This document shows positions 19,308 to 62,251 of a DNA stretch of 64,000 nucleotides, piece after piece. Where the stretch lies: assembly GCA_015039365.1 (NCBI GenBank), contig WION01000027.1, positions 1 through 64,000 on the forward strand, in the 5' to 3' direction. The number at the start of each line of letters is the position of its first letter. Position 1 is the first letter of the stretch. This stretch comes from Amanita rubescens. Taxonomy: Eukaryota > Basidiomycota > Agaricomycetes > Agaricales > Amanitaceae. Position numbers and translations under genes: made by a program. The notes beneath the pieces were generated by a model. It saw only the letters and a program-made list of their open reading frames with translations. It was not told where the DNA came from and did not search any database.

Positions 19308-22300
19308 TCAAAATGCAGTTAGTAGAAAAGTCAATTTGCGCACTGTACGCGATATCGTTATCGCCATCATGCTTTGCACGACGTTATTCATACTTGGCCG
19401 TTTCAACGGTTCCCTTACCCAGCAGCGCTGAATTACGTCCCACGCTCCATCGCTCAAAGGCTGATCAGCTAGCCGAGGTGGTCGAACGCCTCGAAAGACG
19501 AGAGACAGTATCTGCAGGTCTGATTTACCGGCAAAAGGAATATTATCATAATGGATCTTGAAAGAGATTAGCACATGAGGGATCATCATGTTCAATGTGA
19601 CGTACTTCATAATAAAGGCATCCAAAAGCATAGATGTCTGACATCTGAGTCCTGGATGGAGCGTCATCAGATGAACCTTCGTCATCCTCTGACAGTCCAA
19701 ATAACTCTGGGGCCGCAAAGTTCAGATGTAGCGCTCCCGATCTCGTTTTTGTAGCTTCTGAGAGTCGAGTCAAGCCAAAGTCGGCTATTTGGACATGAAA
19801 ATTATCATCCAAGAGGACATTCTCCTGGAGAGAAGAATTAGCATTGTAATATAATGTGTCTGAGGTAGAATAGTACCCCGCGGAGATCGCCATGAACTGC
19901 GCCTTCCGAATGGATGTATTCCATGGCTTGCGCGGCTTCCAGTATCTTCCGAGCATTAGACATAAAATGAAAGTAAGAAATAGGTAGAGGCGTACGCGTT
20001 CTTCAATGACAGCTATTGGTGGATTTGTTTGTTTCCGCCACCGGGCTAGAGTCCCGTTCTTCATATATGGTGAAACAAGGAAAATTTGTGGTGTTGTGGC
20101 CTTGATTTCATGGATTCCTAAGATTGGTAGTATGAATTTGTGCTTGAGGAATCGCCACATCAGTGCCTCTCGGCAAAAGGCCTATTGGCGGCCTTCGAAT
20201 CAGCAATCGCATTATAACAAAAAGACATACAACTTGGTTTTCAGACTTGTACAACACTTTTAGTGCCACGACTTCTCCCGATCGTTCGCCTTTGAAAACG
20301 CGCCCAAAGCCGCCACTACCAATGTAATCACGATCGTCTGGTATGCTGACTCCAGTCACGATCATGGATGGTGGAATGATAGGTATCTTTGAGATAACTT
20401 TGAGTATAAATCGTCGCAATCGCCGCGTAATATCCGTAGTGGTGAATTCCCGACCCGATACACTTGATGCAGTACGATTAGGTCCCAATTTACGATAAAT
20501 AAGAAGCATCTCAAGTAGATGATCCAATATTTGACTGGCTTCCGGCGAGGGGTCATCTATTTGAGTTGCGAGATCGACGTAATCCTCTCGAGATAGAACC
20601 TCGCACAGGAGGTCGTAGACCCCACTGTCGTGTATACTGCCATATACATACTATCGGTTCTTAAGTGTAGCACATTGGAGGTCTGAAATGGCGCACCTTG
20701 CATTCGCTATTCTTGACCGTATACAAGAGCAATGGTATGATGTATTTGTCAGGATCGTCCAGCGTGTTTGATGATGGCACAATGTGCATCTTTGAGAAAA
20801 CTGCCAACGTCAATCGTCTTCCCCGCAGGTTCATGTCCGAGCCTTGTTGGGAGAGATACTCCTCTGAGACGGAATAATCATCATCAACATAGTCAATAAT
20901 CGGCAGCGAGATCTGTAAGAAATCGAGCAGATCCTTGGCATCAGAGACTTTATGTAGCTGTGCTAGTACGTGGTCGATGTAGTCTTCCCTAGATAGGATG
21001 CAGCGCAAAAGTTCAGTCATCAGTGGGTGACCCATATCATCTTGACTCTATAACTCGTGAGAGTGTGGTTTCCAAGTTTTAAATGTCACGCACAAATTGC
21101 CCAGAATAGGTGAGAATGTGGAGCAGCAATGGAAAAGAATAGTTATCAAGATCATCTGGATTGGGTGGTGGTTCAATAGTATATGTCTTTGACATAATTT
21201 TCAACAGGAACAGTTTTTTTCGCTGGATCATGAAGTTTGCATCAGGATACATCCAACAATAAAAAAGCCGATCAAGAATCAGGTCCAATAGATTTTTGGC
21301 GTCTGCGATATGGTCAAGCTGTGCCACAATGTCCATGCAATCCTCCTGGGACTGTAGAATATTGTACATAAGGTCGCCTAGCGTGCGCCTTATATGAACC
21401 TCAGGCTCGAAGAAAGGTGCCGGCTACCAGCTCTTAGGAGAGTGTATTCCAATTTGAAATGTTGCGCACCTGTTTAGAGTCGAGTATAGTTGTGATCAAT
21501 TGGAAAATCTTGCTATGAGAATTATGCGGCGTGTTGGAGTTGGACAATGATATACCTCGAGTCTTTGCGGTGACTTCCAATATAAATCGGTTTGCTCGTC
21601 CTTTAAAGTATGCGTTATCAGAGGAGGTATGAGAATTAAGCCTGCGCAATATAAACTTCAACAGATCCCCGGCCCGTGGGTTATGGTGTAGCCCTGCCTG
21701 GGAATAGATGTCGCCCTTTCTTGATAGAATCTCGCTCATGAGATTTACTGCTAATTCATTTGTTGCAAGAGGATATCCAAGCTATCGGCCCTTAAAAGAA
21801 TACGTCCCGTGATTGAAATGCTGCGCACCTCAACATTATTAAGTATATAGAAGAGAGATGGGAACACATTGCCGTGAGGATCATACGGCGTGTTGAACTG
21901 TGGTTCGCCACACATTTTTGAGATAACTGCCAACTCAAATAGTTTAGCCCGTCCGTTCATGTCTATAGTGGCAGAATCGAGTACTCGTGAACGCTGTAAC
22001 GAATGACAAACAAGCATAGGCGCTAATGATTCCAACAAATTCATGGCGTCCGAGAATTGATTCACCTGTGAGGCGAGGGTGATGTAGTCATCCCTGGATA
22101 GAATCTCGCTCACAAGGCAGGTCGTCATAACGGAAGATTTGGGCTATTAGTTCTTAAGAATAGTTTGTTCCAGTTCGAAGTATTGCGCACCTTCTTATTG
22201 CGGAGTATAGTGAGGAGTAAAGGGAATGTATAGCTGTCAGGATCATACGGGATGTTGGATAGTGGGACATCATGCATCCTTGAGATAACTGCCAACATAA

Positions 22301-22636
22301 ATCGTTTTGCTCGTCGGTTCATGTCTACGGTGGCTAGATCCTGATTCGATAAGGCACAAAGCCAACGTCGTATGAAGTCCAACAAATTCTCGGCATCCAA
22401 AACATCGTCTAGCTGCGCCGCGAGGGTAATGTAGTTTTGCCTAGATAGAATCTCGTTCATGAGGTCGACCGTCGATGCGCATAGAGGTGATTCAGGCTAT
22501 TGGACATTAGGTGGATATACATCGGGTTTGAAATACGGTCGCGTACCTTCTTATTCCTGAGTGTAAAGAGAAGCAAAGGGAACTTGAAGATGTCATCTCT
22601 ACCAACATCATGTGACTCCATGTTGTACCCTTCCAT
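19308..22636 (-). CDS. TKL-like protein kinase with tandem N-terminal exon repeats
   Basis: Start ATG 22636 (MEGYNMESHD). Exon 1 (22547-22636) is followed by five exons, 22191-22496, 21829-22143, 21470-21781, 21094-21423 and 20697-21047. Each is a multiple of 3 and each encodes one repeat of about 102-117 residues with the pattern EILSRxxYITLA, DAxNLLDF, RAKRFMLAVISKM, then DPxxYxFPLLL. Introns of 46-50 nt start GTGCGC/GTACGC. Exon 7 (20231-20650) holds a last partial repeat fused to the kinase N-lobe. Kinase motifs: GSGGFGRVFKG, VVALKVL, FLVSPYMKNGTL, HGDLRGENVLL (across an intron), IADFGLTR, APELFG and SDIYAFGC. Lys, Asp, Asn and DFG are all present, so it is probably active; HRD is HGD. 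This architecture fits agaric-specific TKL-like kinases. The repeat's function is unknown; protein binding is an inference. Confidence 0.85.
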
Positions 22637-22640
22637 GAGT

Positions 22641-22659
22641 CGCTCCTGTTACAGGAGCG
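22641..22659. repeat. Short inverted repeat before kinase start
   Basis: cgctcctgttacaggagcg: 9-base arms around a single base, 4 bases upstream of the kinase ATG. It could form a hairpin in the mRNA leader or be a dimer-binding site. Confidence 0.4.
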
Positions 22660-23109
22660 TCCTGTTCGGCTGGTGCAGTGAAGCCAGTTACGTAGATAAT
22701 GAATCACTCGGTACAAAGCTGTGCACCATTCACGTAACCGTAACCGTGGGAATGGTGACGGGAAGACGCCGCTGATTGTAATTGGTCCAACGTTCGATGG
22801 CCTCTTAGCTTACCTAACTGAGATGAGCATGAGCATCAAACCGTTTCTCGCCTGTGTCCTGACGTTGTTACAGGCGATGGTGATCGTTAGATATTGCTGA
22901 TGAATTAATTCTTTTTTTTCTGCCCGCAACGCTACAGTTACAAAGCCATCTGCATATTGGTTTTTGCTTCACACGCCCGGCCGATTGGATTATATAATTC
23001 AAAGCAACTGTGCTCATCTTGAACAACTCCGAGTCCGTGCTCCGTGCTCCGTGCTCCAGCCAATATCTGGTCATTGAGTGTGACATTCTTTACTCGTCAA
23101 CTCAAGCGC

Positions 23110-23780
23110 ACAAGTTCTCGTTGACTCCGACTCGCGCCATGTACGCCAGGGCCCCCCGATCCGATTTAGACTACCCCGACAACAGCGATCCCTGGGAGAA
23201 GGACACCCTCCGTGACTCCGTCGAGTCCTCCCTACGATGTCTCCGAGCTCGAAGCCAACCGTTAGTACTTTGGTATCCGGGGTCCCAAGTTGATCTTCCG
23301 GACATCCAAGGATGTCTTCACAGCGCCCTCGGGGCCAGAGCAAGAACCTCGTCTCATGCGGCTTCTGCCAATCTATGAGCACCACACGCTGGGCAAGGAT
23401 GATCTGTGGACTACTATTCGTTCTAAGGTTCGTGACCTTCTCGAAGTGCAGCAATCTGCGGACTGACATCATTTCGTTCCAAGATTGTTGAACTCCTCGA
23501 CCAGCGAGACATCCAGCATCCGTCCTTCGTTTCAGCTGGGTTGAAGAGAACGAGGAGAGCGAGGACGACGAGGACGATGATGAGGATGACGAGGATGACG
23601 AGGATGACGAGGACGACAAGGATTTCGATTTCAAGGTCGCCCCGTGCGGGACAGTCGTTACCACTCCCGTCACAATCTGGGTGGGAGTCTTTCCCGATAC
23701 TCTTACTGGCGAGGTCGCATTCCACTCTTCAAATGACATCTTCTCGGCGGGCCCCATCCGAGCCAGGGGTACGCCTACAG
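23110..23780 (+). pseudogene. Inverted dead copy of the trypsin-like gene (5' half)
   Basis: Matches the minus-strand gene at 24467-26538 in inverted orientation, from the SDLDYSDYSDPWEK region (here SDLDYPDNSDPWEK) through KLIFRTSKDV, RLLP.YEHHTLGKDDLW, VRFSWFEEN-like residues and VTIWVGV.PDTLTGEVAFHSSND. Lesions: a TAG after EANR (Tyr in the parent), several small frame slips and loss of everything after AFHSSNDI, including the whole catalytic part. The acidic segment has expanded as a GATGACGAG-type repeat (about 23545-23620). Confidence 0.8.
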
Positions 23781-23812
23781 TGAGATGTCATCACAGCTGG
23801 TACTAATTCTAA

Positions 23813-24174
23813 ATGCAGCCTCCACAATCACATACCCGTGATAGGGGACAGAAATCAACCAACTGCTGGGAAGTTGCACTACAGCTCGCACAGCAGTGCC
23901 GTGATAAGTTCAAGGAGCCGGTTGAAACGGTTGATGATATCGAAAGGAATTCGACCGCAGCGTTGGAATTGTTGGCCAGGAGGTAAGTTCTGAATTTTAC
24001 CACTGCTCCCCTTCCATCCCTGAATGCTAACCACGATGTGCTGATACCAGTGTCCGGTCTATCCCTCGTGCCTCACGTTTTACGGGAGCGGCCGACCCTT
24101 CCTCTATCAAAGATCTGGCTTGTCGTATGGTTCACACGAAATACCTTGATATGATACACAACAAATTAATCTGA
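23813..24174 (+). CDS. Short hypothetical protein (two exons), possibly a remnant
   Basis: ATG 23813 opens MQPPQSHTRDRG, continuing to ALQLAQQCRDKFKEPVET and ELLARR. A GTAAGT donor and a CCAG acceptor near 24050 join to SVRSIPRASRFTG and MVHTKYLDMIHNKLI, ending at TGA 24172-24174. It is about 100 residues with no recognised domain. It follows directly on the dead trypsin-like copy and could equally be the 3' part of some other broken gene. Confidence 0.35.
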
Positions 24175-24349
24175 TGACTCGGACTCTTCTTAGTAGCCTG
24201 TCGCCTTACAACTTTTCAGGCCTGTGTTTTTATCTTTCATGCATGTGTTCCATAATCAAGTTATAGCGAGTTGGAGGGGGGTCCTTATTGTACCAAACAT
24301 GATTAACATATAATTTGTGTACTCATAGTAATAGGGTCGTTCACAGTAA

Positions 24350-24398
24350 CCATTTTTTGGCCATTTTCACTTCATTTTCAGTTTTCATTTTTGCTGAT
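24350..24398. repeat. Dispersed A/T-rich repeat, copy 2
   Basis: Inverted match of 5604-5656, differing at only a few positions over about 42 bases. It lies just beyond the 3' end of the trypsin-like gene that stops at 24467. Confidence 0.45.
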
Positions 24399-24466
24399 AC
24401 ATGCCTGCTTAGTCCGTACACTGTTGTTTGACCACCTGACTCGTGAGGCAGAAAGAAGAGACGAAC

Positions 24467-26538
24467 CTAGTTGTCGCAGCCTTCGAAGGAGAGGCTGGCA
24501 CCGGGGAACTTGGCCTCGATGATCTCCCAGAGCCAGTACATTGGCGAACCAAACGTGATGTCAGAGATATCGGTTGAACCCGTGCCACTGGTGAGGAGAG
24601 CGACAAACTTGCCCTGGGCGTCGACGATGATGGACCCAGAGTCCCCGCGCTTGGAGAACGGACCGGAGTCATTGTAATAGGGGTAGACTGCTGCTTCCAC
24701 AGAATTGCGGGTGCCTAGGGCGAAGTAACGGCGAACATGAGACTCAAATCCATTCAAACAACCGACCGTGACGAGCGTGGTGAGGCCACGTTTTATAACG
24801 TATTGTCCAGAGACACCTCTGCCATGATCTTTGTTGTTGAACGCGCGTATCTCTTCGGCGGAGAGAATGCCTTTGAGCTCGACGAGTCCATCGGCTGTAT
24901 AATTGAAATCGGACAGCGTATTGATGCGAGGGCGCATCAACCTGATGAACTTGACGAGGTCGGTCACAGGGCCTGGAATATGAACAGTAAGATTGGACGC
25001 CTTTAGCTAGACGGATCAGCACGCACCAAAGTCGAGCACGTTCCCCTTGAAGTTCTGCGAGAACTTCTCCTCATCGAGCTTGACGACGCAAATATCCTTT
25101 GTATAACTGTGAGGAGTGGTAGAGACACTGGGTGCCCAGACAACATGTCCAATGACCCGGTCCTTCGGCTTCGCCCACTGCTTCCTCATCTTCAGGAAGA
25201 ACTTCTTGAGCTCCTCAATCGCCGTTCGTGCCTTGCTCAGCTTACATTGAGTCTCCACCAGTTCTTCCGCCTGCTCAGCATTAGGGCCACCGCCCTCCGA
25301 TTTCGCCGTTAACGACGCCGTAACCCGCTCCAAGTACTTAACCGTGATATTCATGTCGTTAATATGGCGCTGGATGGATACGATGAAGTTGGTGAAAGTC
25401 TTGGTGCCCATGAGGACGACCTCCTTCTTAGGCCCGGCTTTATAGGTGTAGTCAAAATTGCGCTCATCTCGGCGGGGAAAAGAACGTACCGACGTAGGAG
25501 TATGGATTATTGCCTTCGTCTTCAGGGAACAGGACGTGGCGGGCCGTGACGGCGTAACGATCTTTACCCACTCTGAAGTAGAAGCCCATTGTTCCCTCCG
25601 TCTCGAGCATGTTCAAGCCAGCGATAGGGAGGCCAAGTGCAGTAGTCACGGGACCGATGACGGCCTTGAGGGGATCGAATTCCGAGACGGGTGCGAACAG
25701 TTCGGGACCACTGAAGCTCCTGACCACCGACTCACGGTACGCAACATCGACGTCGGAAATGCCGTGCTCCTTAAGGAGATCAAGGATGTCGTTTGAAGAG
25801 TGGAATGCGACCTCGCCGGTAAGAGTATCGGGCAAGACTCCCACCCAAATTGTAACGGGAGTGATAACGACCGTTTTCCCGTACGGGGCGACCTTGAAGT
25901 CGCCATCATTGTCGTCCTCTTCCTCATCATCCCCGTTCTCCTCGTTCTCCTCATCATCCTCGTCGTTCTTGTTCTCATCATTCTCCTCAAACCAGCTGAA
26001 ACGAACAAGGTCGACGGACGAATGCTGGATGTCTCGCTGGTCGAGGAGTTCAACAATCTTGGAACGAATGTCAGTCCGCAGATTACTGCACTTCGAGCAG
26101 GTCACGAACCTTAGAACGAATAGTAGCCCACAGATCATCCTTGCCAAGCGTGTGGTGCTCGTAGACTGGCAGAAGCCGCATGAAACGAGGTTCTTCCCAC
26201 TCTGCCCCAGTGGGCGCTGTGATGACATCCTTGGACGTCCGGAAGATCAACTTGGGGCCCCGACGTCTGTAACCCCTGAGACCATAATAGTAACGGTTGG
26301 CCTCGAGCTCGGAGACATCGTAGGGACTCGAGGAGGAGGAGTTCTTCTCCCAGGGATCGCTGTAGTCCGAGTAGTCCAAATCGGATAGGCAGTGGGCCCT
26401 GGCGTTCCTGGCGCACGCCTCGTCGAACGCTGGTGAATGCAAGACGTAATCCTCGAAATCTAGAAAAGTATACGGTGGGTCAGTACGGAAGAAGACCAAT
26501 AAAACGTAAAAGAACTCGCTTGTGAGGTTTTCAGACAT
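24467..26538 (-). CDS. Intracellular trypsin-like serine protease-domain protein
   Basis: ATG 26538 (MSENLTSEFF). Exon joins that keep frame: a GTTCGT...CCAAG intron near 26061-26112 (TIRSK to IVELLDQ), a GTACGT...TAAAG intron near 25450-25490 (YSYVA to GPKKEVVLMG), and a GTGCGT...CCAG intron near 24975-25030 (LDFG to PVTDLVKF). A highly acidic stretch lies around 25910-25990. The protease-like core shows AVTARHVLF (His), KDICVVKLDEE (Asp) and FSKRGDSGSIIVD (Ser, GDSGS), a complete triad in order, with a coiled helical insert between His and Asp (VETQCKLSKARTAIEELKKFF). It ends FEGCDN at TAG 24467. There is no signal peptide. Such proteins are common in Agaricomycetes and mostly uncharacterised. 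A dead inverted copy lies at 23110. Confidence 0.85.
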
Positions 26539-26597
26539 TGCACTATGAGAGTAGTAGCGAGAAGAGCGAGTTGAGCGCGTTAGGAGAGTGGACCTCC

Positions 26598-26605
26598 TTT
26601 TATAG
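26598..26605 (-). promoter_or_regulatory. TATA box of trypsin-like gene
   Basis: CTATAAAA on the minus strand, about 60 bases upstream of ATG 26538. Confidence 0.55.
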
Positions 26606-26708
26606 TCAGAGTCATACTGAGATCAATTGAGACCAATGTCACGCGCATCACCTTTTTTGGCAGGTAGTACGGGTTGAAAGGTATAAAAGGACCTCAGGCT
26701 GCCAGTAC

Positions 26709-27110
26709 GTGTTGCCATCGTTGGCCATGTTGCTCTTGCACAACTCTCCGAGAATTACATTGAATAAACACAGACACCCGACGTCTGCATCCTTCATTTC
26801 CAACTTGCGCACCGATATCCTGTTGCATAATTTTGACGTGCCTCGAGGGCTTCGTCTATGGCCGCATCGAACATTCCGGGCGCCGAGCGCGTCGCTGTGC
26901 GCTTGTGATGGAAATGCATTGGTTAGCCCTGGATCCTTCAGAATGATTGTGTCGGATACTTTTCAGATGACGCATACTGATTTGGTAGATGCTTTAGATT
27001 TTGTACCTCAACTGAAGTACTTATGTTGTCCTTACCGTTACTTTAGTCCAGTTCAAAGTCACCAAGTCGGACCTTTCCTCCAGGCTAATTTCCGCATACT
27101 GTGGTGTTAA
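26709..27110 (+). pseudogene. Possible F-box/leucine-rich remnant
   Basis: A single 133-codon frame contains SFRMIVSDTFQMTHTDLVDAL and DFVPQLKYLCC, reminiscent of the leucine-rich tail of agaric F-box proteins. No F-box and no downstream exons are seen. A TATAAAAGG box at about 26683 points into it. Weak evidence. Confidence 0.3.
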
Positions 27111-27486
27111 ACTCCGGCCAAAATCTGACTATGAAGGGGAGGAGTGTACATGAGTTGATGGTAGTCACAACCGTGTTAGCTTTGACTCATCCATCAGTGA
27201 CTCGGACACTTTGGTTGTCATGATCGCACTGTGGCATGTGGCAACATATGACTGCCACGCATTGAACATAGGGGCATAGAATCATCATCAGAAGCATCGG
27301 ATCATTTTACTACTTACATGAGTACAACACATCAGGTATAAGCGACAAGCCGGTACTCGCGTGTGGCATTCATGGCAGTAAGGCCGCGATCGATTTATAG
27401 TAGTAGGGTATCATTAAAGTTTCAGTCATTCCAAATAAGCAAGAAAGATAACTTCTCTCATTTACTTAAAAAATTACAATCCAAGA

Positions 27487-29147
27487 TCAGAAAAACCGTG
27501 TTTCGCCAATATCGCAAATGTCAAAGTCGCGGTGGGAGATACCCAGCTTCGTGCATTCAGAACGCAAAAGTTTGGGTGGTTCATCGACTGGTTCAGTTGT
27601 CAAGATCCACGTTCTGTTTGCGGCGTTAGACTTAACGAAAGGTAAAGAAAGGGAATGTAAACTTACCCCCAGTGCATGCCGAGTGCTTTACGAGCGCGTA
27701 TGTCCTTGAAGAGACGAACGCTGTCTTGAGGAGCGCAATGGATAGGAGACATGACCTGTCGAGGCCGATACGCCCTACAATGCACCAAGGCGTTAGTTCA
27801 GGTTGGAGGAAACGAAAAGGACTTATCTACCCACCCAATCGGTATCATGGCAAAATCAAAGCCACCAAAAACGTCTCCGATCTCTTTGAAGGCGGGACAA
27901 TGAGGGAACTTGTCTTCATCTTCGCCGCCTTTAACGGCGCGATAACCAGTGTCGCCTGCAAAGTATACTTTGACGGTTTCCCCTCGAGGGATATCCTCTT
28001 CGGGTTCGATCGCGGAGGTACCATTCTCATTGGGCTGGGTTGTGCCTGCCCCATCCCCGTTATTAGCTGTCGCATCATTCCCCGCATTTGGGACAGGTGC
28101 AGGGGCTAGAGACGGGTCGGCAGTCGTAGAGGGCGCTTCTACGACCCAGGAACACCAGAGGGTATGATAGTCGTCAACGATTATGCGTCCCGTGAAGTGT
28201 TGAGAAGGTGTACACGTTATATCAAACGTCAAGGTAGACGTGGGTGTTTCCTTGGAGGGTTCTCCGGAGGTGGTTTCGGAGGGGGTATTAATTGGTATCT
28301 GGATTTCGACGCGTTTCGACTGCCACCAGTCCATGATGTGGATATCGTTGGGGTCCGCACCGGTAGACGTTAAAAAGTCCCGGTTGCCGAGTGGGGCAAA
28401 GATGAGCGGCTTGCGCGGACGTTGGAAGATGGCCTGTAAGGTGTCAAAGTCCATGCTGGCGCGACATAATCAGACATGGATTGGATAGATCAGACCAGGA
28501 GAACTTACTGATCATAGTGGTCGTGCTGGATAACAGGGGTCAGTACGTCAACGATGACATGTAAAAACGCGGGCTTACGGAAATGATGATGACATCGATG
28601 TCCGGAACTTCCTCGATATTGCAAGGGGCGGCTGTTGGAAAATGGAGAATCAGCTCTGACGTCATCTGACGAGGTTGAGTGGCGACGCACGCGTGTACCG
28701 CTTTGGTCCGAGAGTTTGAGACGAGGAACAGCGCATGCTAAAGACCGGATCATATAGTATACGTATGCCCCTTGGGTCCGAAGGTTTCGCTGGAAGCTCG
28801 ACTAGGAAGCATGCGTGTCCGAGCCATGTTGCTTTGATCTTGTGGTTAATTCCACGTCCAACTTCCCAGTTTGGCATGATTACGGGAACGAGAGCATCTG
28901 GACTCTTCTTGGGGTACGACCAATTTAACAGAGTGAACGCCATCTGCCCGGGAATCCTTATCAGATTGTGCATGAAAGGTTCAGATGGAGAAAAAACGAA
29001 CATAAGGGGCGATTCTGAACATGGAGGGATAGATACGGTAGCTGGGCCATGGATTAACAAACTTGCTAGGAATGTTGTTCTTCCAATGCGCAGGTTTGCC
29101 CTCAGTGGTCTTCTTGGGCGGTAGAACAGTAACGGTAGTGGTAGACA
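27487..29147 (-). CDS. NAPE-PLD-type metallo-beta-lactamase-fold hydrolase
   Basis: ATG 29147 (MSTTTVTVLPPKK). Core motifs: ATWLGHACFLVELP, RILYDPVFS, PDIDVIIIS, HDHYDH (the zinc-binding HxHxDH), GKPLIFAPLGN-like residues (KPLIFAPLGNRDFL), TPSQHFTGR, LWCSWVV, VYFAGDTGY, PIGAYRPRQVMSPIH, ALGMHWG and the family C-terminus WILTTEPVDEPP...GETRFF. Known members hydrolyse N-acylphosphatidylethanolamine to N-acylethanolamine; zinc ligands are complete, so the gene looks active. At least seven exons; HDHYDH sits on a 17-nt exon (28509-28525) between GTAAGT and CCAG sites. An insert rich in Ala/Asn/Gly/Thr lies between WSWVVEAP and the GETVKVYFAGD strand, probably a surface loop. TATAAAAG at 29180-29187 (minus) lies 33 bases upstream of the ATG. 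Confidence 0.9.
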
Positions 29148-52390: not shown

Positions 52391-53090
52391 CTCGGTCAAG
52401 ACAAGACTAATGTGATCATATCAAGCACATACCATATTGCTAGGTGCACGAGGAGGGCTGAGTCCGGGTTACAGCAAGCTGTACATGGCTCTGAAACTGC
52501 CAAGTCGTGCTGCTCGGCAAGTAGGAGATGTTTATGGCGTAATTACTATGTCCTTGGTTGCACCCATTGACCGCCTTCTACAGAACTTCTGTGGAGGCAG
52601 CAGTTGGAACGTTGAGTTCATGTGTGGACTTAGCAGATTTCGCGCCAGGTGTGTAACGTGTAAAATCCATTGCATGACGTGCCAGTACAAGCGTGTAAAA
52701 ACGTCGAACTACGGAGTTGCGCGGGTTGGCGCGGCTGGGGTGCTGTTTTGCACTGTTTTGCACGGACCCGTGCGGGCTACCCGTGGACCATTTTTGACTG
52801 GGCCTCATGCTTCAAGCGTTCCCCATGCCTCGCCGTGTGTTTTGCGCAGGATCCCGCCGAAAGCTGGGATCCTAGGACAGCGTAAGTCGCAATTACCGAA
52901 ACGTTGGAATATTTCAAACTCGGACAGCAGGTAGAATCTGCAGGAAGCCAACGAGTTAACTCACGCTAGCCGTTAATGAGTGCTCGCGACGAGGTTACTG
53001 GAGCTACGTGTCCCGTTGTGACTCGGATTGCCGTTTTTCAAAAGTTCGTCCGCAACCCCATTTTCCTTTATCTCCTTTTAATCTATCGCA

Positions 53091-55040
53091 ATTAGCGGCC
53101 CCGTTACTTTGCTTGCACTCCCCCACGATTTGCTCGAACGAATTTTCCTGTATCTAGACGCCCAAGACGTCAGAAGGCGCACCTTTGTATCAAGGCGAAT
53201 CAACAATTTCGTACCTTCCTCGGTGATTCTACGGTATCGCTTGGCCTGTCATGCGGCAGGCGTCGTTGACAACCCGTGTTGCAACCTCTCGTTTGCGGAA
53301 CGCTACGAGGCTCTAATAAAGCGAGAAAAGGCGTGGTGGAGGTTTCAGCCAGCTTTTATAAAGACGTTTCATGATGCGTTTAAGGCATCCCCCATATGCA
53401 GCTTAACATCGGGTGTCCATCTGTACGGCGAAAGCGGGGGCCGTAATCTGCACTATTGCTTCCTTCCATCCACACCAGACGATGTTCTACGATGGACAAC
53501 CATACCCAGCCATGCTCCAGTCAAGAACTGGATCGTCCCTTTGCACATATCCGTCAGGTGGGCATGGCCGGTGGTGATAATGATCTCATGGTCCTCGTCA
53601 TCTCGTGCGTTCGTCAAAACCTAATTGATGAATGATGATTCTCACTTTAACACCAGGTCGACGAATGAGGATCAAGCACGCGTCTGGTATTCATTATACA
53701 TCACTCTTCTTCAATTCTCCACCGGAGAACACCATCCGTTGGCTCACCGTCCACGAATTGACGTAGGAGAATACGAAATGGGCCAGCATGTTTTTCTGGA
53801 AGTCGCCGGCGACAACATTGCTCTCCTAATTGACACTTACGGGATATCACAACTATCTATTTTTGACTGGAAGACGGGCCTTAAGAAATTGGTACGCAGC
53901 TACACTAATCTGTCTCCCATTTCTTTCCTAAATATTTGCCCCTCTTGAGACAGCAACATCACACTTTAGAGACGGCCTACTGTCGTCTTGCTTTCGTATC
54001 ACCTGAAATTCTTCTCGTACCCAACGCGATCAAGGGCCAATACGAAGTTTGGAGGATCCCATGGAAGCAGATGGCGTTCCATATCAGATGTTAGGTCTTT
54101 GTTTTCCTGCTCTATCCAAGGGGCATTCTATCATCGGGTTTGAAGATTGCCGTGGTAGACCTAACCCACATAATATGCTGCGAACTTCACCTAAACCATT
54201 CCACACTTCTCCGGACGAAACCGTGATCATCACCATAGTCAATATCGCTATTTCCCCAAACCAATTTGGCACAAGATTGGCCCTTTTCATCCGCCGCCGA
54301 TATCTTCTAGAAGCCATTACGAATCTCACACAGTCAGGCGTGCCTCCCCCATTCGATGTCCGGCATCATTTCAATGATGTGGAGGTCAATTATGACGACT
54401 CTGGAACACGTACACCATACTCTTTCACTTCACCTCCTCCACCACGGGCTCTCAGGCTGCCTCTAGCCATGGAAAGGGGTATAGCGTGAAATCCATTCCT
54501 TGGTCTGAATGGGGACCGCCTGTATCAAGGTGGTTCAGTACTGGGAACGGGGATCAAACCTGGAGTAATACTTCCGGACAAAGATAGGTGTTCCTTGAGC
54601 CTGTTGATGATGGTGATGAAAGGTACCGATTGGGCATAATCGATTTCAACTCTCATAACGTCTACAATCCTCAAGACAATTTACCGGGCGATTTGGTTGT
54701 AAGACGAAAAGGAGACTACTTCGATCATAGTAATGTTTTTGCGGAGGAGATCGAGATGAGATTGGGCTGTACGATATACACGGCTCCCCAGGCGTATGAT
54801 CATAATACGTGGTTCATAAACGACGAGAGTGTGTTGGCTTTAAAGGTACGTGCGAGGTATAGCTTTTTTTTGCCTTTTTACTTATGGTTGGCAGACTGTC
54901 GCTTACGAAGGGCGTGTGGTTGGAAATATGACCTTATTCCATTTTGGCTGAGAATTAATGTGTCCACTCGTCGTTGCTACTCGTCAGACATATATCACTT
55001 CTTGGAACCTGCTGTCTTCAGATCTATAACACTATGATAA
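53091..55040 (+). pseudogene. F-box protein pseudogene
   Basis: Begins with an F-box, LLALPHDLLERIFLYLDAQD and VSRRINNF, but with no ATG in reach. It continues in agaric F-box style: ENVWYSLY-like residues, GQHVFLEVAGDNIALLID, SIFDWKTGLKKL, then across a GTACGC...ACAG intron LETAYCRLAFVSPEILLVPN and EVWRIPWKQ. Lesions: a frame slip between PLHISV and VGMAGGDNDLMVLVIS (about 53550), another before VKSIPWSEWGPPVSRWF (about 54486), and a TAG after GQR (54585) where the frame otherwise runs on into VFLEPVDDGDERYRLG. Total span about 1.95 kb. Several independent hits make a functional product unlikely. Confidence 0.7.
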
Positions 55041-55631: not shown

Positions 55632-57358
55632 TCAGGCCTTCGTATGTTGACTCTTGAGTGCAGCATCTTCCGTGCAATATTCCTTCCCGATAGCCCTAAG
55701 GTCCTCGTGGCCCTGGTTAGGCAAAGCTTTTGACAGAGATTAAACAGAGTTGATTATTCAGCTTGAAACTTACGGCAAATGTAATCCAATGTGCCGTCTG
55801 GGAGATCTACATGCCGTGCGCTTGACCAGTCGTATATGTACGCCTTGAACTTGTTATCGACGTCCTTGCCGTAGATAAAATATTTATCTATTGGATGCCT
55901 GAGCGATATCAAATGATTGACACACTTCATCAGCTGAGAACGACAACACTTACGTATTTACCATCCCGAAGTCTTTCTTATACCGTTCTATTGCTTCTTG
56001 TTTCAGCTTTTCTCGCTCTTGATCATCTAGGCCCTTCACGTCCATCTCACCCTCAAACTTCACAACCAGATACACCACAGTTATGCTGTTCTCATCATTT
56101 ACAAGCAGCGACCCCCCTGTAAGGAATCTTTCAACCGCCTTCAAGTTTGTAACCTCGTGTACAAGGTGCTGTTGTTTCCGGGTTCCTTCGACCCAGAATA
56201 CTTTGAGGGCAGCCGGGAAACCATCAACGAGGCCACGTAATTTGTAATAATTAGCTTCGGCATTACCCCAAAGATGAACTGGCTGGTCTTTAATGATGAA
56301 TTTCTCGAGGTCAGGAAGAAGCTAAGAACAGGAACAGGTATCAAGCTGAGTATGATAGATACGAAAGTCTTGTGTACGTACTACGTGATCTTTGACTCGG
56401 AGGCCTTGCGGTATGGGCTTCGGTGGCGGTGGAAGTGCTCTGCGGTCGCCAGGCAAATAAAACGTATCTAAGAAGGGCCATTCCAGGCCCGGAAGTTTCT
56501 TATACCTCGCATGGGCCCAATCAAGCAATCTTAGCGAGTTGGAGGAGCGCGCATCCGGGCCATTAGCATAATTGGCGATATACTTATCCCTGTTGTCGGC
56601 ACAAACTGGTTAGCGGATATAATACATTTCAACGCTATACACGTACATGTGAATCATCCCATACTTTTGCTTATATTCTTCCCTAGTCTTCGCCCCCAGC
56701 GCTAGAAACTTAGCCCTATCCCCCCCAATTTTCGGATCCAATGCAACCCCCATGTTCACCATCAGGAGATATATGTTCATCTTCAGCGGACCGGCAGGCC
56801 ATTCGAACACGCCGTCAATATACTGCCCAACCTGCTTCAGATGTGAGACTTCCGCGAGAATAAATTTCATGTCTTCCTCGGTTTGGTCTGTATACACCTT
56901 TACGACGGGATTGATATACTTCTTGACGTGACTCTCGGTATATGTTCCTTTGAGAATCAGGACGCATGCATGTTTGCTGAATATAGTTTTCTTTTGTACA
57001 TTCTTCAAAAGCAGCCAAGCAGGGAACTCATCACGACGCTTCTATAAACCCCAGATATAGCAAGATTGGTTATACATCAGGGCAAGGTAAGTACGTACTA
57101 GTTTCGGCATCAGTTGACCGACTCGTTGTCCTGACGGAGGTCCACAAATAAGAGTACGTTGATCATTTACAGGTGTAGTATTCCCTCTCTCTCCCGCCCT
57201 TTTCTGGAAAGATGTAAGGTGAACAAGGTCAAAATGTCGCAAGAACAGTCGGCACGTACGACGATGGTCATTGGATCATTCTCGCAGGCTAATACGTTTA
57301 TCGCAAACCACGAACATAGCATGGAGAAAGCGAAGACTATGATTACAAGGAGGCGCAT
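55632..57358 (-). CDS. Secreted tandem kinase-like protein, copy C
   Basis: ATG 57358 (MRLLVIIVFAFSML) with a signal peptide ending NVLACEND. Exon 2 begins KRAGERGN (Lys-Arg site), then CGPPSGQRVGQLMP. Domain 1: KRRDEFPAWLLLKN, LILKGTY, PVVKVYT (lysine), AEVSHLKQVGQYIDG, NIYLLMVNMG, then HMDKYIANY across an intron (HxD....N) and LRLLDWAHARY. Domain 2: AALKVFW, EVTNLKAVERFLTGG, YLVVKFEGE, RYKKDFGMVN, HPIDKYFIYG (no Asn), YIYDWSSARHVDLPDG. The last exon is CPLPNQGHEDLRAIGKE to HTKA at TGA 55632. All joins at GT-AG sites keep frame. It is closely related to copy D (same-strand tandem, about 2.1 kb offset). Domain 1 keeps catalytic-type residues; domain 2 looks like a pseudokinase. Substrate unknown. 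Confidence 0.75.
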
Positions 57359-57745
57359 GGTGTGACTGGCGCAGTGAAGACTTCAAAACGTAGAGGTTGC
57401 TTGAGTAAAATTGACAAGGGTACTAAAAGATACCGCATCTGGTAACGGGCACAGCCCGCGACGTATTACCATCACTTGTGGTCGTTGCCTTGTGATGTGC
57501 CTACCCGTGCCGCCCGATACCTTGACTCGGAGCCGATCATGATGTGATGAAGTGGATCCGCCTCGGCAGTTGCAAGTGACGCTTTGCGCGTGCGTAACAA
57601 GCTGCGTTCAAAGTAAACTAAACTTCGAAGAAAGATGAGGTAGATATGCCAGAGATAACAAAGAGCGCTTGAGCGTTGGTGATGAGCGAGTTGCGATATC
57701 AGAACTAGACTATTATGTGTGAGTACCGCCGCCTAGCAGTGGATT

Positions 57746-59469
57746 TCACGCTTTGATATGTTGACTCTTGCGCGCGGCGTCCTTCGAGCAATATTCATTC
57801 TCGATTCTCCTAAGGTCCTCATAGCCCTTGTTAGGCAAAGCTTTTGGTAGGGATTAAACAGAGTCGATTATTTAGCTTGAAACTTACGGCAAATGTAATC
57901 CAAGGTGCCGTCTGGGAGATCTACATGTCTTGCACTTGACCAGTCATATATGTACGCCTTCAACTTGTTATCGATGTCCTTGCCATAGATAAAATATTTA
58001 TCTATTGGATGCCTGAGCGATATAAATAATCGGCACACTTCATCCGCTGAGACTCGAGAGCGGCAACACTTACGTATTTACCATCCCGAAGTCCGTCTTA
58101 TACCGTTCCATTGCTTCTTGTTTCAGTTCTTCACGCCTTTCTGGAGTCAGGCCCTTTACTTCCATCTCGCCTTGAAACTTCATCACAAAGTACACCACAC
58201 TTATTTCCCTCGCCCCATCCACCCTTAGCTGCCCGCCTGCAAGTAAACCTTTAACCGCTATCAAATTTGTGATCTCATGATAAAGGTACTGGTGTTTCCG
58301 GGATCCTTCGACCCAAGATACTTTGACGACGGCCGGGAAACCATCGACGAGTTTGTGTAATTTGTAATAATTAGCTTCGGCATTGCCCCAAAGATAGACA
58401 GGCTTGTCATTAATGATGTTCTTCTCGAGCGTAGGAAGAAGCTAAGAACATGAACGAGAATCAAGATAAGTATGATAGATACGAAATGTTGTGTCGTACT
58501 GAGAAACCTTTGGTCCCGAGGTTTTCTGGTATGGGTTTTGGCGGTAATGGAAGGCCGCCAGACTTTCCGGGCCAATAAAACGCTTCCAACCAGTTAGAGG
58601 GTGGGGCCCCAATGCCCGGAACTTTCCAATACCTTGCGTGGGCCCAATCAAACAGGTTCAGACGTGAATTGGAGTCATAGTCATGAGCGGAATTGGCCAT
58701 ATGTAGATCCCTGACATTGGTACAAACTAGTAATCAGAAATGATAAAATCCAACTACATGCACGTACTTATGAATCATGCCATACTTGTGCTGATATTCG
58801 CGATTAGTTGTCATCATCAGCGCGGAATACTTTGCTTTGTCCTCTGCATTATTCGGATCCAGTGCAACACCCATGTTCACAAACAGGAGATATACATTCA
58901 TCTTCAACTGACCGGCAGGCCATTCGAACACACCGTCAATATACTGCTCAACCTGTTTCGAATTCGAGACTTCTAATAGGACAGATTTCATATCGTCTTC
59001 GGTTAGGCCTCTGTACACTTTCAAGACGGGATTGATATACTGCACGACACGGCGGTCTAATTGCTGATGATTGTATGTTCCTTTGAGAATCAGGACGCAT
59101 GAATGTTCGGTGAGAATAGTTTTCTGTATGGCCATTTCTAGCCAGGCTGGAAATTGTTTTCGACGCTTCTAGAAATCCCGGCCAATAGCAAGACTAGTTA
59201 TACATACAGAGCAAAGTAAGTACGTACTAGTTCCGGCATCACCTTTCCGAGTCGTTGTCCTGGCGGAGGTCCACAGGAGATATTGATAGGATTTGATGCT
59301 TTCTTTCCTGCCCTTTTCTGGAAAGGTGTAAAGCGAATAGGGTCGAAATATCGCAAGGATAGTCAGCACGTACGACGATGAAAACGGCATCATTCTTGCA
59401 GGCTAAGACGTCAGCTACAAGCCACGAGCATAGCATGGAGACAACGAAGACCACGGCTGAGAGGCGCAT
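57746..59469 (-). CDS. Secreted tandem kinase-like protein, copy D
   Basis: ATG 59469 (MRLSAVVFVVSMLCS) with a signal peptide ending DVLACKND. Exon 2 starts KRAGKKAS, followed by CGPPPGQRLGKVMPEL. Domain 1: KRRKQFPAWLEM, LILKGTY, PVLKVYR, LEVSNSKQVEQYIDG, NVYLLFVNMG, then HKDLHMANS across an intron, the most kinase-like catalytic loop in the family (compare HRDLKPEN), and LNLFDWAHARY. Domain 2: EITNLIAVKGLLAGG, YFVMKFQGE, RYKTDFGMVN, HPIDKYFIYG, YIYDWSSARHVDLPDG. The C-terminal exon CPLPNKGYEDLRRI ends HIKA at TGA 57746. The frame is intact and the gene is a tandem duplicate of copy C. Confidence 0.78.
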
Positions 59470-60885: not shown

Positions 60886-62251
60886 TATGGACACCGACAG
60901 TTTGCTGACTTCAGAACAACTTCAAGCGCTCAGACAGTCTATCTCATCCCATGCACCATTTTGTAGCGGCGTCTTGCCAGTGCCCAATCCCGTAGACTTG
61001 GCCTTGTACTATGGGAAAGGAGAAAACGCTCGGTGACTTGGGCTCCTTGACATCTTGCTTGCAATACTTAACAGGCTCTTCATAGCTGGATCGATCTCTA
61101 TCGGCCTTCAAATGAATCCATATCAAACTTTGTCAACGCATGCGAACCTGCAACATTTGGTTTCAAGGGCGAGGACGTGTATGATGAATCTTACAGAAAA
61201 GCCGGAAAGCTCGACTCCACCTCATTTCGGCCTATGCTCGACATTTTGAGCCTCGGTCTCGTCGCGATTGTACGCGATGGCCTTTTACATGGGATGGAGG
61301 CGCAGAAACCTATTCGAGCCGAGCTGTACAATTTGAACGTCTATGGTGTCGTCTTACATCTGAAACGTGTCGCACACGTACTAATGCGTTTTCGTAGGAG
61401 AAGGATCATTCTTCAAGGCACACAGGGATACTCCCCACGGTCAAAAGATGTTCGGATCTCTAGTCATCTTCTACCCAACTTCCCACCAAGGCGGTAGGTT
61501 GCACATCAGGAAAGACGACAAGGAATGGTATTTCGACTCTGAAACATTGACCGAAACCGAGGAGCCTCACATCGGCTATGTCGCCTTGTACAGCGATGTC
61601 GAACACGAAGTTGATTTGGTCAAATCCGGCCACAGAGTATCGATCACCTACAATCTCTTCTACGAATCGGACCACTTTGTGCAGCATCCTACTTCCTTGT
61701 CTCCTAATGCTCTTGCTTTTAAAAACTTGTTGCAAGGCCTTTTGGATGATCCGACGTTTCTCCCGGACGGAGGGTGGCTTGGTTTCGGCCTTGAATATCA
61801 CTATCCGCTACCCACTGCTACCAAACACATCAAACTGGACAAAATCTCCAACAACCTTAAAGGAAGCGACGCGGAAATCATGCAAGTCGCGGAACAACTT
61901 GGTCTTAACGCGTCGCTCTGGTGCCTGGTCGAGTCTGCCCGTGCCAAGGTGGCATGCAAAGGAATATTACCTGATATAAGTGGGATGGAATTTGGCGAAA
62001 ATACAATCGCTCTCGACTCATTCCTCCGCGAAGAAGTCGGGGCCAAGATGTTGCAAGAAAGCGAGGAAGGAGAGGTTGACGAGAGGTGTTACATCAATTG
62101 GGTCACGCGTCCGACTGGTACGAACCGTACCCGGACGGCTTACCTGTATTATGGAAACGAGACAACCTCCGAATATGCATATAACACGGTTTGTTTGGTT
62201 ATACGAGTGGAGAAAAGAGGGCAAAATCAGACCCAGAATCCTAGTGACTGA
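60886..62251 (+). CDS. 2-oxoglutarate/Fe(II)-dependent oxygenase (prolyl-hydroxylase-like)
   Basis: ATG 60886 (MDTDSLLTSEQLQ). Joins: GTGACT...CATAG (ENAR to WIDLYRPSNES) and GTGTCG...CGTAG (NLNVYG to EGSFFKAHRD). Iron-binding facial triad: AHRDTP (His and Asp) and DVEHEV (His), with GHRVSITYNL supplying the 2OG-binding Arg. The core is the double-stranded beta-helix of Fe2OG oxygenases (FGSLVIFYPTSHQGGRLHI, IGYVALYSDVEHEV). About 420 residues with a C-terminal extension (RTAYLYYGNETTSEYAYN) that recurs in agaric members. Substrate unknown; such proteins hydroxylate proteins or small molecules. Ligands complete, frame intact to TGA 62249. Confidence 0.85.

Follow-up and report, generated by a model that had tools for sequence, protein, structure and literature searches.

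The first 64,000 nucleotides of Amanita rubescens contig WION01000027.1, referred to here as the window, contain four related genes, copies A to D, that encode putative secreted proteins with a kinase-like fold. We favor, at about even confidence, a reading in which they belong to an expanded family of secreted, minimal kinase-like proteins that, once matured by a Kex2-type protease, would act extracellularly or in a partner organism. The case is built on the gene anatomy, a dibasic pair, the kinase residue pattern, family members beyond the window and a ratio of nonsynonymous to synonymous change (dN/dS) near 1 in genes of the copy A type.

All four copies lie on the minus strand. GT-AG introns of 47–64 bases were removed in silico, from the sequence and its six-frame listings, and the spliced frames are uninterrupted and stop at the ends given in the preliminary description. 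Copy D (59469-57746) encodes 461 amino acids in seven exons (59469-59374, 59317-59228, 59168-58768, 58710-58500, 58441-58074, 58012-57888 and 57840-57746). Copy C (57358-55632) encodes 464 amino acids, also in seven exons (57358-57260, 57203-57099, 57041-56647, 56589-56382, 56321-55954, 55898-55774 and 55726-55632), and has the same intron phases as D. Copy B (48845-47270) encodes 411 amino acids (48845-48756, 48691-48623, 48566-48193, 48136-47935, 47873-47506, 47455-47331 and 47277-47270). Its last exon, of 8 bases, is uncertain, and the frame continues if the preceding intron is kept. Copy A (2637-1269) encodes 365 amino acids (2637-2542, 2489-2367, 2309-2220, 2164-2126, 2070-1661 and 1608-1269). 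It has one kinase-like domain, while B, C and D have two.

Each copy begins with MRL followed by a hydrophobic stretch. This first exon encodes a putative signal peptide and short propeptide (D, 59469-59374; C, 57358-57260; B, 48845-48756; A, 2637-2542). After a phase-0 intron, exon 2 opens with KRSG in A, KRTP in B and KRAG in C and D, as the preliminary description had reported. The Lys-Arg codons are a putative Kex2-type site (D, 59317-59312; C, 57203-57198; B, 48691-48686; A, 2489-2484). The kinase-like motifs named in that description are likewise found in all four spliced models. The lysine strand reads VVKI (A), VLKV (B), VVKV (C) and VLKV (D); the hinge reads YLLMENMG, YLLLKNMG, YLLMVNMG and YLLFVNMG in the same order; the HxD loop is HKD in A and D and HMD in B and C; and DW is present in 4 of 4.

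Are there only four copies, as first described? For the window this stands: a family profile run against its 1714 reading frames of at least 25 amino acids gave 14 matches, each an exon of A–D, and none in the same frames reversed. The profile was built with the window copies included, and the result speaks to the absence of further recognizable copies in the window, not to the relatedness of A–D. The family itself extends well past the window. Searching the genome (75.7 Mb, 786 contigs) with B, A and two relatives, L063 and L062, found further loci, some in tandem, such as four on contig C152. Ten additional genes were modeled (L057–L063, L073, L074 and L076), making 14 models with A–D. Other loci are known as search matches alone, for example on C46, C78, C109, C152, C289 and C495. 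One locus, L064 on C41, has an in-frame stop, and its intact copy L062 is almost identical. The C-D pair is present on six contigs. Two of the five other D copies are open to the end (C154, C535), and three carry several scattered small deletions (C758, C736, C313). A segmental duplication of the pair was considered and set aside, as the deletions in these three look like sequencing error in small contigs. They point to redundant or unpolished contigs, and no copy number is therefore claimed. A subtelomeric setting is unsupported, three CCCTAA repeats being found in 0 of 64 family loci examined. A search with L063 of collected bacterial and archaeal genomes and of viral contigs, sensitive to close relatives only, found no relative.

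In all 14 models, exon 2 begins with a dibasic pair, Lys-Arg in 12 and Arg-Arg in two (L074 and L076). The codons of the pair differ by synonymous changes: Lys is AAA or AAG, and Arg is CGA, AGG, CGT or AGA (in the window, the first Arg codon of exon 2 is CGA in A and AGG in B–D). The remainder of exon 2 aligns poorly among members. Retention of the pair across the 14 models is the pattern expected from selection for a Kex2-type site. Ahead of the likely signal-peptide cut, 13 of the 14 models have V-x-A and L076 has V-x-S. The 9-residue hydropathy maximum ranges from 2.32 to 3.60 across the 14 N-termini, and five pass a level of 2.6 that 6.3% of 589 background starts reach; hydropathy alone is thus no proof of a signal peptide. 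Secretion and Kex2 cleavage, both proposed in the preliminary description, gain indirect support only, from the hydrophobic N-terminus with its V-x-A pattern and from the dibasic pair, and we would still call the export and the cutting themselves putative.

A TATA box lies 79–88 bases upstream of the ATG in nine loci (A, at 83 bases, L057–L061, L063, L064 and L073). None was found upstream of B, C, D and L076, and the 65 and 58 upstream bases read for L062 and L074 are too short to judge. The two branches, loci with this conserved box and B, C and D without it, may thus differ in expression. The linkers of A, L057, L058, L059, L060 and L073 contain K[KR]x[KR] motifs, and that of L061 has none; nuclear targeting through these motifs is a lead only.

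We then compared the catalytic residues in an alignment of 17 domains, which includes 13 first domains, domain 2 of B, C and D, and L075, a locus read in part. The strand-3 Lys, the helix-C Glu and a Trp column are alike in all 17. All 13 first domains have the catalytic-loop His, Asp and Asn as well as the Asp of Asp-Trp, the Asn being less sure in several rows, where it follows alignment gaps. In D, domain 1 (exons 3 and 4, 59168-58500) shows the Lys and Glu, HKDLHMAN and FDW. Domain 2 of D (exons 5 and 6, 58441-57888) retains Lys, Glu and DW and has lost the catalytic-loop His, Asp and Asn. Across B, C and D, these three are replaced in domain 2 by Asn, by His or Lys, and by Tyr, respectively, with Asp-Trp retained. 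L075 has lost His-x-Asp and has Asn-Trp. Because of this residue pattern, domain 1 looks catalytically complete and domain 2 of B–D looks like a pseudokinase. The earlier kinase-like label needs correcting for the second domains of B–D, which are better called pseudokinase.

The introns suggest how the second domain arose. Domain 1 of A–D is interrupted inside His-x-Asp by a phase-2 intron, which divides the codon preceding the catalytic Asp (D, 58767-58711; C, 56646-56590; B, 48192-48137; A, 1660-1609). The second domains of B, C and D carry an intron of the same phase at the equivalent position (D, 58073-58013; C, 55953-55899; B, 47505-47456). The likely origin of the second domain is thus a duplication that took the intron along. 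In an unrooted tree of the 17 domains, the first and second domains of B–D group together with support of 97/93.

A feature beyond the earlier description is a shortened C-lobe. A standard kinase has more than 100 residues after the DFG position. The eleven single-domain models have 36–100 residues after Asp-Trp, with just 36–39 in L062, L074 and L076, and Pfam and most PDB matches stop near the DFG position. Judged by length and sequence, these proteins thus seem to lack the activation segment and helices F to I, or to have them in much reduced form.

Profile searches, predicted N-lobes with a fold search and the residue pattern all support a kinase-like fold. The curated cut-off of the Pfam protein kinase model, PF00069, is 31.7 bits, and no member scanned reaches it. 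Copy B comes to 20 bits (E = 0.0005), and L063 (E = 0.00032) is the sole match among the eight members of a full-length alignment. Six of 17 single domains match at E up to 1, the best at 6.3e-5 and 22.9 bits. The whole proteins of A, C and D have no Pfam match at E up to 10; L073 and L074 have no Pfam match either, and L076 gives three weak rows, unrelated or APH. Weak rows such as Plk4_PB1, Bmp, PyrI and DUF4426 were set aside as chance. DUF5898 (PF19250) was also rejected; one domain has a weak match to it, at E = 0.00072 and 19.9 bits where the cut-off is 28.9. The PF19250 model had no match in this genome and none in 14 control genomes, hence is little informative.

Profiles built from domains were clearer. 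With an E limit of 1, a profile of the seven window domains gave 32 rows among PDB sequences, every one a kinase, led by TNIK at 6.1e-5. The 17-domain profile had 100 PDB matches at E up to 0.1; its top 60 are protein kinases without exception, and the lowest E is 4.3e-5. The full-length profile was noisier than the domain profiles. It gave 33 rows at E up to 1, the best at 0.059, comprising 26 protein kinases, one capreomycin phosphotransferase and six coiled-coil constructs. Copy C as a single query returned one unrelated row (E = 0.38).

Structure models cover the N-lobe exons only, as an intron splits the catalytic loop. The domain 1 piece was exon 3 of C (57041-56649), matching exon 3 of D. 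Model confidence (predicted local distance difference test, pLDDT) was 74.5 for domain 1 and 61.3 for domain 2. Structure prediction had been proposed in the preliminary description as the check on which the fold assignment could fail, and it returned kinase-fold structures in 49 of 50 Foldseek rows listed for domain 1 and 50 of 50 for domain 2. Some APH structures were among these rows, and none of the rows listed had an E value below 0.001. The models have the N-lobe fold of the protein kinase-like superfamily, and we regard the N-lobe as kinase-like by prediction only.

The rate at which these genes change bears on what the proteins might do. All 12 paralogue pairs tested show greater similarity in their introns than in the kinase exon (Fisher p from 0.036 to 3.4e-8); the 12 pairs share genes and are not independent, and for six of them, in which intron numbers differ, intron 1 alone was summed. 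In the C-D pair, the His-x-Asp intron taken by itself is less similar than the exon. Among the exons of the copy A type, exon 1 is conserved best in 10/10 pairs. A codon model of six copy-A-type genes gave omega values of 0.56 for exon 1, 1.05 for the linker, 1.10 for the kinase region and 1.39 for the tail, none significantly different from 1 (p = 0.15, 0.78, 0.52 and 0.07, respectively). Pairwise dN/dS exceeds 1 in some regions, such as the kinase region of A versus L057 (1.71) and the tail of L059 versus L060 (2.48). Positive selection was not accepted from these pairwise values, given the codon model. Exon synonymous divergence (dS) is above intron divergence in some pairs, so gene conversion or constraint on introns may contribute. 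For C versus D, dN/dS is 0.39. Fast change is a feature of the copy A type, in which diversifying selection is suggested.

Secretion, cleavage, catalysis, the loss of C-lobe helices, a target and an effector role are all inferred. In the most likely path, a signal peptide would direct the protein into the secretory pathway, and a Kex2-type protease would cut after Lys-Arg to release the mature form. Domain 1 would bind ATP via its Lys and Glu and transfer phosphate with His-x-Asp, Asn and Asp-Trp. In B–D, the catalytically degenerate domain 2 may regulate domain 1 or dock a partner. The site of action of the mature protein would be outside the cell or in another organism as partner (a host, a rival or a mate). 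Encounters with targets that themselves change would account for the faster evolution of copy-A-type exons than of their introns.

The same gene anatomy would be expected of resident secretory-pathway kinases. These would enter the pathway and be trimmed, but their substrates would be cell-wall or secreted proteins of the fungus itself, modified in the Golgi or extracellularly, with no foreign target. The ordinary constraint between C and D is in keeping with that role. However, a large tandem family with copy-A-type omega near 1 would be unusual for a housekeeping function, and the members scanned have no Pfam match to known secretory kinases; we consider resident kinases rather unlikely. The short C-lobe raises a different alternative. 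With the substrate platform missing, the family could consist of secreted pseudoenzymes that keep the fold as a nucleotide- or protein-binding scaffold and transfer phosphate in none of their domains. The few residues after Asp-Trp in the eleven single-domain models, matches that stop near DFG, and the loss of the catalytic Asp from domain 2 and L075 all argue in this direction. Against it, every first domain retains the His, Asp, Asn and Asp-Trp set while much of the protein changes, and we judge it improbable that all members are inactive.

A third concern is the models themselves, which were spliced in silico with splice sites picked by eye. If the hydrophobic exon were not joined to the kinase exons, these genes would be intracellular kinase relatives. 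Yet exon 1, the phase-0 intron and the dibasic start are alike in 14/14 models, the TATA boxes of nine loci sit 79–88 bases before the exon 1 ATG, and conservation is highest in exon 1 in every copy-A-type pair (10/10). Mis-modeling on this scale seems to us very improbable. We retain the reading of a secreted, Kex2-matured family as our preferred explanation. If it is correct, an expanded family that combines a standard route of export and maturation with a reduced kinase fold and rapid protein change would show in compact form how little of a kinase suffices and how duplication gives rise to a pseudokinase partner. Surveys that rely on Pfam would overlook this candidate class of secreted fungal proteins, since in the members scanned no model scores up to its cut-off.

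Elsewhere in the window, positions 20000-28000 have many genome-wide matches (72–99% identity, in long pieces) and an internal inverted match, and are probably repetitive or mobile DNA. Three further reading frames encode an F-box (53082-53621, plus strand), a 2OG-Fe(II) oxygenase domain (61385-62248, plus strand) and a tyrosine/serine-threonine kinase domain (19549-20181, minus strand).

Among known systems, the eukaryotic protein kinases of PF00069 are closest by the Lys, Glu, His-x-Asp, Asn and Asp pattern, the predicted N-lobe and the domain profile (E = 4.3e-5), and the nearest solved structures are MAP4K/STE20 and CAMK members. By residue pattern and predicted N-lobe fold, the family would work like a kinase. 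It differs from PF00069 in its sub-cut-off scores, in Asp-Trp instead of Asp-Phe-Gly with little sequence thereafter, and in the putative signal peptide and dibasic site. Proteins of the aminoglycoside/choline kinase-like fold (APH, PF01636) also have Asp-Trp for Asp-Phe-Gly and an HxDxHxxN-like loop, resembling L063, L073 and D. However, only one member reaches E = 0.12 with PF01636, and the profile search ranks protein kinases first.

FunK1 (PF17667) is likewise kinase-like, fungal and expanded in this genome, with at least 131 matches listed. With 107 of 238 candidates scored, none of the 131 coincides with a family gene, and PF17667 had no match in a scan of A–D and the ten relatives. The model also matches in 6 of 14 control genomes and thus is not specific. 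FunK1-type matches cluster on C135, C41 and C289, and one (C135:188817-190722) lies about 4 kb from L062 (194765).

Few kinases are known to leave the producing cell. FAM20C/VLK and fungal CotH are kinase-like proteins that enter the secretory pathway, and their Pfam models had no reported match to any member scanned. The bacterial effectors OspG and NleH, small kinases whose C-lobe is reduced and which work inside a different organism, would be a general parallel with a different export route. We tentatively raise, as possible though doubtful, a stronger version of the preferred reading. Exported, Kex2-matured mini-kinases, some of them kinase-pseudokinase tandems, would have kept the catalytic set, dropped most of the C-lobe and entered an arms race with the targets of another organism, as an independent eukaryotic counterpart of the bacterial minimal-kinase effectors.
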